A stretch of 64,000 nucleotides of DNA from Pseudoflavonifractor sp. MSJ-37 (lineage in GTDB: Bacteria > Bacillota > Clostridia > Oscillospirales > Oscillospiraceae). The notes under the pieces are model-generated. The model worked only from the letters and a program-made list of their open reading frames with translations, was not told where the DNA came from and did not search any database. A program made the translations under genes and the position numbers. The stretch covers positions 1,054,001-1,118,000 of the forward strand of contig NZ_JAHLPP010000001.1 in assembly GCF_018917965.1 (NCBI RefSeq), read 5' to 3'. Of the stretch, positions 4,134 to 6,270 are shown in pieces (the stretch's first letter is position 1; each line of letters opens with the position of its first letter).

Positions 4134-4985
4134 TCATAGGGCGCTCACCCCCTTTCCGCCGTGGCTCTCCCAGCCCACGAGTTGCTGTTCCCGCTCCAGC
4201 ATCCGGTCGTAGCTCCGCTCCACCAGGATGGAGATGTCCTCCCAGATGCCGTCCCGGGTGCTCTGGCAGAGCTTCCGCAGACAGCGGGGCGTGGCCTTCT
4301 CCGGGTCCACCCGGGCGTCCCGGCACAGGGTCTGGATCGCGGCGGTCACATGGGAGCGGTTCATGGGCCGTCCGCTCCGGGTGATGAACACGGGGCCGCT
4401 CAGCACCCCTTCCCGCTGGATATAATCCACCAGCTCTGCCTGGAGGCAGGCCGGGATCCTCCGTTCCACGCCGGCGGCGGACACCCGGCCCGCCGCCACG
4501 GCCTCCGCGGTCAGCAGAGGCAGGTCCAGCAGGTTCAGCCCCAGCACGCCGAACACCTTGATCAGCAGATAGGGCTTCTCCCGTTCCAGCGCCTTGGCCG
4601 TGGAGAGGAGCCGCAGGTATTCCCGCCGCTCCAGCTCCGGCTGGACAGCGCTCTCCCCTTTCAGCCGACTGTCGATCTGGAGCTCCCGGTGGCCGTGATG
4701 CTCCAGATAGGTGTTGGCCGCGGCCAGATAGCTGTTCACCGTGCCCGGCGTATAGCCGTCCTCCAGCAGGGCCCGCTGGATCCGCTCCAGGGTCCCCCGC
4801 CGGATCCGCTCCCCCTCCGGGAGCAGGCGGCAGATCTTGTTCAGGCTCCGCCGGTAGGTCCGGATGGTCTCTTCCGTGCGGCCCTTCTCCTCCAGGTCCC
4901 GCAGGAACGCCTCGATCCGCTCCGGAGAGAGGGCGACGCCGCCGGTCTCCGCTGGACGCTCCGCTATAGCCTGTCCTACTGACAT
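4134..4985 (-). CDS. Degenerate tyrosine-recombinase-like protein (catalytic residues lost)
   Basis: This 283-residue protein has the tyrosine-recombinase layout: an N-terminal SAM-like core-binding domain (about 20-105) and a C-terminal catalytic-like domain. The box-I arginine expected in GLRxSEL is Asn151 (GLNLLDL). In box II, where HxLRH is expected, it reads R-C-L-R-K (234-238), so His is gone and only one Arg remains. A Tyr at 259 is not in a convincing catalytic setting. It is probably a non-catalytic paralogue, perhaps a directionality or regulatory partner of the intact recombinase at 5425-6270. The start at 4985 has GGAGGG 7 bases upstream, and the left inverted repeat of the switch lies directly beyond that site. 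It is the first gene read from the invertible promoter. Confidence 0.75.
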   Translation of the reverse strand: MSVGQAIAERPAETGGVALSPERIEAFLRDLEEKGRTEETIRTYRRSLNKICRLLPEGERIRRGTLERIQRALLEDGYTPGTVNSYLAAANTYLEHHGHRELQIDSRLKGESAVQPELERREYLRLLSTAKALEREKPYLLIKVFGVLGLNLLDLPLLTAEAVAAGRVSAAGVERRIPACLQAELVDYIQREGVLSGPVFITRSGRPMNRSHVTAAIQTLCRDARVDPEKATPRCLRKLCQSTRDGIWEDISILVERSYDRMLEREQQLVGWESHGGKGVSAL

Positions 4986-5001: not shown

Positions 5002-5018
5002 ACCAAATCAACATTTCG
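5002..5018 (+). repeat. Left inverted repeat of the switch
   Basis: The sequence ACCAAATCAACATTTCG is the exact reverse complement of 5402-5418. It has internal dyad symmetry (AAAT-CAAC-ATTT), as expected for a tyrosine-recombinase core site with two binding arms. It lies in the 5' leader of the degenerate recombinase gene, just upstream of its ribosome binding site. Confidence 0.85.
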
Positions 5019-5066
5019 ACGTAAAAGGCCGCCGGAAGGACGGCTGTGGCCCCGTTACATATCCTT

Positions 5067-5095
5067 ATTTTAACAGGATCTATATGGAAATGCAA
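5067..5095 (-). promoter_or_regulatory. Promoter inside the invertible segment, facing the surface-protein operon
   Basis: On the minus strand this reads TTGCAT, 17 bases, TAAAAT. Transcription would start near 5060, cross the left inverted repeat and enter the gene starting at 4985. If the segment inverted, the promoter would point right, antisense to the recombinase at 5425-6270. Confidence 0.7.
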
Positions 5096-5130
5096 GGAGG
5101 ATCTGATCCTCAGGGCATACGGAGACAGAC

Positions 5131-5154
5131 CGCAAAAAAAGACGATTTTTTGCG
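5131..5154. other. A/T-rich hairpin in the invertible segment
   Basis: CGCAAAAAA and TTTTTTGCG form a 9-bp perfect dyad around a 6-base loop. It could be part of a terminator or a protein-binding site; the sequence does not decide. Confidence 0.4.
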
Positions 5155-5166
5155 GCCCGGCTTTTT

Positions 5167-5211
5167 GCGGCCTTTCGGCCCCGGGGACGGGGACGGAGGG
5201 CCGCTTTTTTT
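5167..5211 (+). terminator. Possible rho-independent terminator in the invertible segment
   Basis: GCGGCC (5167-5172) can pair with GGCCGC (5199-5204), followed by seven T. It faces right, opposite to the promoter at 5067-5095. After inversion it would face the surface-protein operon and could block read-through from the recombinase gene. The stem is short and the loop long. Confidence 0.4.
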
Positions 5212-5401
5212 ATCCCGGCGATCTCTGCCTGAACGTGCCGATATCGGTCATATACCGAAAAAATCGGACGTCATCGACGGAAAAAGTGCCTATGAAACTT
5301 CGAATATCCATATCCTGGAAATCATAGACTATACAGACGGTACAGGCCGGGCCGGGTCCGGTCCCATGCCGCCCGGGCCCATAGTACGAGCGAGACCGGG
5401 A

Positions 5402-5418
5402 CGAAATGTTGATTTGGT
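5402..5418 (-). repeat. Right inverted repeat of the switch
   Basis: The sequence CGAAATGTTGATTTGGT is the exact inverted copy of 5002-5018. It lies 6 bp beyond the stop codon of the intact tyrosine recombinase. Confidence 0.85.
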
Positions 5419-5424
5419 CCGCCT

Positions 5425-6270
5425 CTAGGACACCAGCTCCAGACGGTCCAGCTGTCTGGCATGCTCCCGTCCAGAGCCGATCAGGTAGATCCGGGTGGTC
5501 TCGATGCTGGAGTGGCCCAGCACATCGGCCAACTTCACGATGTCCCGGCTGGCCCGGTAGAACGTGGCGGCGAACAGGTGCCGCAGGTTATGGGGGAACA
5601 CCCGGCTGGGCTCCACCCCCGCGTGACGGCACAGGCCCTTCATCTCCGCCCAGATCTGGCGGCGTCCCAAGCGTTTCCCGCTTCCGGTGAGGAATATCTC
5701 GCCGGAAGCGGTCTTTTGTTTTTTGGCGTATTTCAGGAGCTTGCGGCAGAGCTTCCCCGGCAGGAGGATCGTGCGGACCTTGCCCTTCAGCACGATCTCC
5801 GCACGGCCCTCCCGGGCGGCCTCTACCGGGATATAGCGGGCCTCGCTCACCCGGATCCCGGCGGAGCAGAGGGTCTCCATCACCAGAGCCAGCCGCTCCC
5901 GGCCCAGGGCCCGGGCGGTCTCCACCAGACGCCGGTATCCGGCCCGGTCCAGCTCCCGGCCGGGCTCCCGGAACATCCGCCGCTGGATGCGCAGGTAGTG
6001 GACCCGGCAGTCCGTCCATCCCAGCCAGGCGAACAGGCTGTGGACCGCCGCCAGCATGGAATTGACCGTCACGGCGGCATGGCCCTCCTCCCGGAGCTGG
6101 TCCTTCCAGCGGGACACCGCCTCCCGGTCCACCGGCCGGCCGCCCAGCCATCCGTAGAACCGTTCCGTATCCCGCAGATATTTCTCGATGGTACCGGGGC
6201 TGCGTTCCTCCCGGTGCAGATAAGCGCGGAACCCTGTCATCTGAACACGCGTCAGCTGATGCATCTCCAT
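5425..6270 (-). CDS. Tyrosine recombinase (probable invertase of the adjacent switch)
   Basis: This 281-residue protein has all catalytic residues of the tyrosine recombinase family: Arg140 (SAGIRVSE), Lys164 in the beta-hairpin (LKGKVR), His227 and Arg230 in PHNLRH, His253 (LGHSS) and Tyr262 (TTRIY). The N-terminal SAM-like domain covers about 5-90. The start at 6270 was chosen because AAGGAG precedes it by 7 bases; an upstream in-frame extension looks non-coding. The size suits stand-alone invertases of the XerC/D-like class, which lack an arm-binding domain. Its position next to the 17-bp inverted repeats argues that it flips the 383-bp segment. It has a paralogue with degraded catalytic residues on the other side of the element. 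Confidence 0.88.
   Translation of the reverse strand: MEMHQLTRVQMTGFRAYLHREERSPGTIEKYLRDTERFYGWLGGRPVDREAVSRWKDQLREEGHAAVTVNSMLAAVHSLFAWLGWTDCRVHYLRIQRRMFREPGRELDRAGYRRLVETARALGRERLALVMETLCSAGIRVSEARYIPVEAAREGRAEIVLKGKVRTILLPGKLCRKLLKYAKKQKTASGEIFLTGSGKRLGRRQIWAEMKGLCRHAGVEPSRVFPHNLRHLFAATFYRASRDIVKLADVLGHSSIETTRIYLIGSGREHARQLDRLELVS

Follow-up and report, generated by a model that had tools for sequence, protein, structure and literature searches.

The window, i.e., the whole 64,000-nt stretch of DNA that was analyzed, very probably contains a recombinase-operated invertible promoter (a phase switch) in front of a surface-protein operon, and the first gene of that operon codes for a catalytically dead relative of the recombinase. 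An invertible promoter controlling this operon had been put forward as putative in the initial annotation, and it is now supported by a family of loci that carry it at exactly this place and in both orientations. In the proposed mechanism, the recombinase encoded at 5425-6270 would recognize palindromic sites in both arms of an inverted repeat and would invert the 383-nt segment between them. In the ON orientation, the promoter would read over the arm at 5002-5018 into the operon of the dead paralog and the SLH-anchored VWA protein; in the OFF orientation, the inverted promoter would instead face the 3' end of the recombinase gene, leaving the operon silent. We infer that the window copy flips in living cells, that this recombinase flips it and that expression follows orientation. 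The features are collected in Table 1.

Table 1. Coordinates of the switch, its recombinase and the switched operon in the window
Feature	Position	Strand	Remarks
Secreted surface protein, 1330 aa	48..4040	-	VWA, InlB-type repeat, SLH; second gene of the operon
Conserved catalytically dead recombinase paralog, 283 aa	4134..4985	-	First gene of the switched operon
Second arm	5002..5018	+	Immediately precedes the operon's ribosome-binding site
Putative invertible segment, 383 nt	5019..5401	.	Homologous segments inverted between relatives
Promoter TTGCAT-17-TAAAAT	5068..5096	-	48 nt inside the arm, toward the operon (ON)
G+C-rich hairpin, then TTTTTTTA	5167..5204	+	Intrinsic-terminator-like, directed away from the promoter
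Recombinase-proximal inverted-repeat arm	5402..5418	-	Extended site GGACCAAATCAACATTTCGTCC at 5399-5420, a near-palindrome
Active tyrosine recombinase, 281 aa, likely invertase	5425..6270	-	Pfam PF02899 and PF00589; catalytic residues present

The individual elements that had been read from the letters alone were borne out. The 17-bp inverted repeat, described as perfect and spaced by 383 bp, is ACCAAATCAACATTTCG, with its copies at 5002-5018 and 5402-5418. Allowing up to 3 mismatches, two matches were seen in the window against 0.10 expected by chance, and nowhere in the 2.58-Mb genome was there a third copy with 2 or fewer mismatches. Read along the minus strand, the recombinase is followed by 6 nt, an arm, the segment, the other arm, GACT, GGAGGG, six further bases and the ATG at 4985. 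The recombinase stop codon, which ends at 5425, lies 6 nt from one arm, and the GGAGGG ribosome-binding site starts 4 nt past the other, both in agreement with the earlier description. An intact tyrosine recombinase does adjoin the segment, as is characteristic of a phase switch, with the domains Phage_int_SAM_1 and Phage_integrase and an unbroken R/K/HxxR/H/Y set, and the 1330-aa protein has the domains VWA, Flg_new (InlB-type) and SLH. The single promoter reported between the copies was confirmed on the minus strand (TTGCAT at 5096-5091, a spacer of 17 nt and TAAAAT at 5073-5068), so that inverted repeats surround a promoter upstream of a gene, another characteristic of such switches. Because a strict sigma-70 scan did not include this promoter in its list, the call rests on its conservation in the family. 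It points at the operon, and the present orientation was thus correctly read as ON for the recombinase-like gene and the 1330-residue VWA/SLH protein. One orientation probably dominated in the window genome, because the genome was assembled across the switch without a break. Upstream of the recombinase, a 115-aa open reading frame (window:6570-6917) resembles residues 1-74 of the GMP synthase GuaA, and a full-length GuaA-type gene is located elsewhere in the genome (C1:528190).

Searching the genus revealed a second copy in the same genome and copies in other genus members, and in each genus copy with intact flanks the recombinase stop is immediately followed by a perfect repeat. With a profile of four recombinases, 80 loci were obtained from public genomes; recombinase matches were present in 79 of 300 sampled family genomes, with up to 8 copies per genome, and the relatives carrying such loci are Clostridia. 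In the first set, 46 of 65 loci had a perfect repeat of 14 bp or more near the recombinase stop, compared with 5 of 1239 random positions. In the enlarged set, it followed the stop at 103 of the 147 loci with enough downstream sequence, and no perfect repeat was found at 28 of the 147. One recombinase of a genus relative (L011:331-1110) appears frameshifted next to a still perfect inverted repeat, either by recent loss or by sequencing error. The family arms are about 14-20 nt long and share the palindromic site GACAAAATnnnnATTTTGTC; the gap is typically near 230 nt (quartiles 223, 233 and 255 nt in the 147 loci), and the gap of the window is longer than this interquartile range of 223-255 nt. 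When a site model was derived from other loci, without the arms of the window and of its own-genome paralog, the two window arms ranked best (19.9 bits) and second best (16.7 bits) in the 64 kb, with the next match at 13.6 bits. The conserved linkage suggests that the recombinase at 5425-6270 is likely cognate to the arms. If the module were a relic, once invertible and now fixed ON to serve as a normal constitutive promoter, some drift would be expected, but the arms are identical over 17 bp, both are the window's best matches to the family site, and the recombinase retains all of its catalytic residues. We regard such a locked copy as quite improbable, although its unusually long segment and the assembly of a single orientation on a 1.22-Mb contig would fit it.

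Promoters were called by a simple rule, a TTGNNN/TANNAT pair 30-65 nt inside one arm, which was made slightly looser for the enlarged set. They were found in 39 of 61 segments, as opposed to a mean of 1.6 (maximum 5) in shuffled sequences, and were not found by the rule at 26 of the 147 loci of the enlarged set. The family promoter lies about 48 nt from one arm and is directed, depending on the locus, toward the downstream gene or toward the recombinase: 10 segments were ON, 29 OFF and none both among the 61, and the corresponding numbers in the enlarged set were 28, 64 and 1. Between the close relatives L032 and L074, the flanks align plus/plus at 84-91% identity and the 464-nt segment aligns plus/minus at 89%; the inverted portion includes the arms and the flanks are collinear. 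The pairs L052/L062 and L061/L073 show the same inversion. Comparing orientation in related genomes, a check that had been suggested at the outset, therefore uncovered both orientations, with inversion in three locus pairs, and together with the mixed promoter directions this is the family-wide behavior of a phase switch. Comparison across loci shows site, promoter and recombinase to be a conserved module at the sequence level, with both orientations among relatives. Neither the inverted segments nor the mixed promoter directions are predicted if the repeats serve as operators, at which the recombinase or the dead paralog would regulate transcription without recombination. That reading, to which a promoter flanked by palindromic sites and the DNA-clamp-like predicted fold of the dead paralog lend some appeal, is barely plausible.

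Assembly breaks were also found at these loci. At 17 of 180 loci, the contig breaks off no more than 130 nt past the recombinase stop, at several of them exactly at the arm, and no contig was seen to end on the 5' side of the recombinase when the contig coordinates of the same loci were read by eye. In the genus relative G006, the segment is missing, and the same arm (inner edges) forms the start of contig C101 and the end of contig C62. Such breaks are as expected from a population of mixed orientation; they could have other causes, and we take them as supporting evidence only.

The second copy in the own genome, at C3:164.5 kb, is built in the same way: a recombinase, the repeat CGAAATCTGCATTTCG 1 nt after its stop and then an SLH/InlB/LRR surface protein. 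Its promoter (TTGCAT-17-TATGAT) has the direction opposite to that in the window, i.e., OFF. This locus (L010:7381-7702) contains three sites: the recombinase-side arm occurs twice in direct orientation, at a distance of 53 nt, and once inverted. Such an arrangement would allow inversion in two different ways, or loss of the small piece by excision. At L035 the arm is similarly doubled, and a hairpin lies between its copies. Orientation-dependent read-through of a recombinase gene has been discussed for fimE. As a general rule for the present family, read-through governed by terminator direction was rejected: among orientation-called loci, a terminator was found in the recombinase sense alone at 10, in the promoter sense alone at 7, in both at 3 and in neither at 26, and the rule fits only the window and its own-genome paralog.

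The gene at 4134-4985 had been taken for a degenerate recombinase, and here the initial annotation needs correction. The gene does lack the residues of an active tyrosine recombinase (R, K, HxxR, H/W and the nucleophilic Tyr), with Asn for the first Arg, RCLR for HxxR, Asp for H/W and Leu for Tyr. But a recombinase-like gene follows the segment at 20 of 83 loci, and at 28 of 147 in the enlarged set. All dead paralogs with a complete aligned region lack both the Tyr and the His of the second box; some retain the first Arg and others have lost it, and the family has invariant residues of its own, PRCL and EQ..GW. In a tree rooted on the Xer-like enzyme of the own genome, the dead paralogs form one clade (support 1.0) beside the active clade (0.74). 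Their closest pair has a dN of 0.135 and a dS of 0.438 (dN/dS about 0.31, compared with about 0.20 for the active gene), a substitution pattern that shows purifying selection on the family. In the search of 300 genomes, 29 dead genes could be told apart from active recombinases (E at most 1e-69); 20 of the dead genes lie on the same strand as an active recombinase and at most 4.2 kb downstream of it, and intact genes of the dead clade are found in many genera. The predicted fold of the window protein (pLDDT 88.6, pTM 0.59) keeps two domains and resembles lambda integrase on DNA (TM about 0.6), with a single long helix predicted for the C-terminus in place of the Tyr region. In genomes G298 and G222, some dead paralogs are part of longer open frames (459-557 aa) that contain a portion of the same domain a second time.

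On these sequence data, the protein is a member of a conserved monophyletic family of dead recombinases and not debris. A functionless duplicate that decays while being carried in the operon would account for the missing second-box His, H/W and Tyr, and also for the lack of any visible latch effect, since orientation did not differ with the dead paralog (6 ON and 9 OFF) and without it (22 ON and 55 OFF). We nevertheless consider such decay unlikely in view of the single clade of intact genes across genera, the invariant residues, the dN/dS ratio and the position of most copies behind an active recombinase. The same counts led us to reject a latch model based on orientation bias, as ON was not significantly commoner with the dead paralog (6/15 compared with 22/77, p=0.38).

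Two features of the repeats set the loci with a dead paralog apart, both uncorrected for relatedness: perfect repeats are rarer (17 of 28 loci compared with 102 of 119, p=0.006) and the sites are less palindromic (Mann-Whitney p=0.0004). Because of these two differences, together with its kinship and linkage to the active recombinase, we tentatively suggest that the dead paralog works on the switch itself, e.g., through feedback. In one possible version, the protein would be produced mostly while the switch is ON and would bind the sites that the recombinase uses, either by itself or mixed with the active enzyme, thereby altering the readiness to flip back. More speculatively, the switch may encode its own brake, in that the dead recombinase expressed in ON would occupy the sites or join the active enzyme and thereby set how long ON lasts; if true, this brake would be a built-in and widely conserved feedback loop in gut Clostridia. 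Alternatively, the dead paralog could act away from the switch, e.g., on the long downstream operon as a transcription factor or antiterminator, like UpxY, which works in this way as the first gene of Bacteroides capsule operons. Its place ahead of long surface-protein or polysaccharide operons at many loci would suit that role, but its relatedness to the switch's own recombinase, beside which it is found, does not, and the less palindromic sites, with the above reservation on relatedness, hint at action on the sites; we regard this role as doubtful. Feedback on DNA inversion can be tested directly, since the operon under the switch itself carries a conserved dead recombinase.

Other recombinase-operated switches offer partial parallels. 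The fim switch of Escherichia coli has the recombinase gene pair FimB/FimE beside its inverted promoter, and a recombinase gene pair likewise adjoins the promoter here; in fim both recombinases are active, whereas here one of the two is dead and encoded within the operon that is switched. In Clostridioides difficile, a single RecV serves several switches, of which cwpV and flg are thought to act on the transcript and not via a promoter flip, whereas each switch of the present family has its own adjacent recombinase. In the sources drawn on here, the RecV switches (cwpV, flg and others) resemble ours in that a site-specific recombinase inverts a short stretch of DNA ahead of genes for motility or the cell surface (PMC2784873, PMC7446863). 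The Mpi/tyrosine-type invertase cluster 3b of Bacteroides is described in the part of the literature used here as having invertible promoters before surface polysaccharide operons, similar to those of our family (PMC11892184). Bacteroides belong to another phylum, and the first gene there is UpxY, in contrast to the recombinase paralog found here.

The closest precedent is in the inverton catalog of Jin et al. (2025), which, in the portion used here, gives 33 read-supported members of inverton group 139, 32 of them in Clostridia, and links this group to tyrosine recombinase (invertase) group 35 by statistical association only (PMC11892184). Its example in Intestinimonas butyriciproducens DSM 26588 has 14-nt arms, a 227-nt gap (383 nt in the window) and reads in both orientations (PMC11892184). 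By size, host class and gene context, our switch closely matches this pairing, with a Clostridia host, a tyrosine recombinase within 5 kb and a similar inverton size in the family; to judge from that portion of the catalog, it is a new member of an already catalogued kind (PMC11892184). The earlier annotation, in which no description of this specific switch was known, thus needs amending as to the kind, Clostridia invertons with a tyrosine recombinase; a dead paralog is not described for group 139/35 in the same portion (PMC11892184). No inactive recombinase paralogs in inversion systems were found in the open-licence literature searched and, as far as these searches reach, a dead paralog inside the switched operon is new.

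The switches are placed ahead of S-layer-type surface proteins, polysaccharide operons and regulators. The genes behind them, or behind the dead paralog, code for SLH/VWA/InlB surface proteins, polysaccharide functions and BTAD regulators (the latter two named partly from reading N-terminal sequences), and further for treble-clef zinc finger proteins (DUF4379), a helicase and GGDEF/EAL domains. Such switches can be found from assemblies alone, by locating the recombinase, then GACAAAATnnnnATTTTGTC just past its stop codon and then the direction of the promoter. In at least 7 loci (L027, L052, L057, L065, L069, L077 and L100), the switch is directly followed by a gene for a member of a short cysteine-rich protein family (DLTGQRFGKLTV...CRCDCG), with no Pfam match in the single member scanned alone (L027). 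In three other loci (L043:7529-8797, L051:7539-8816 and L099:7075-8421), the first gene after the switch matches an integrase catalytic domain, followed in L043 by winged-helix domains, and these genes are possibly another kind of recombinase-derived regulator.
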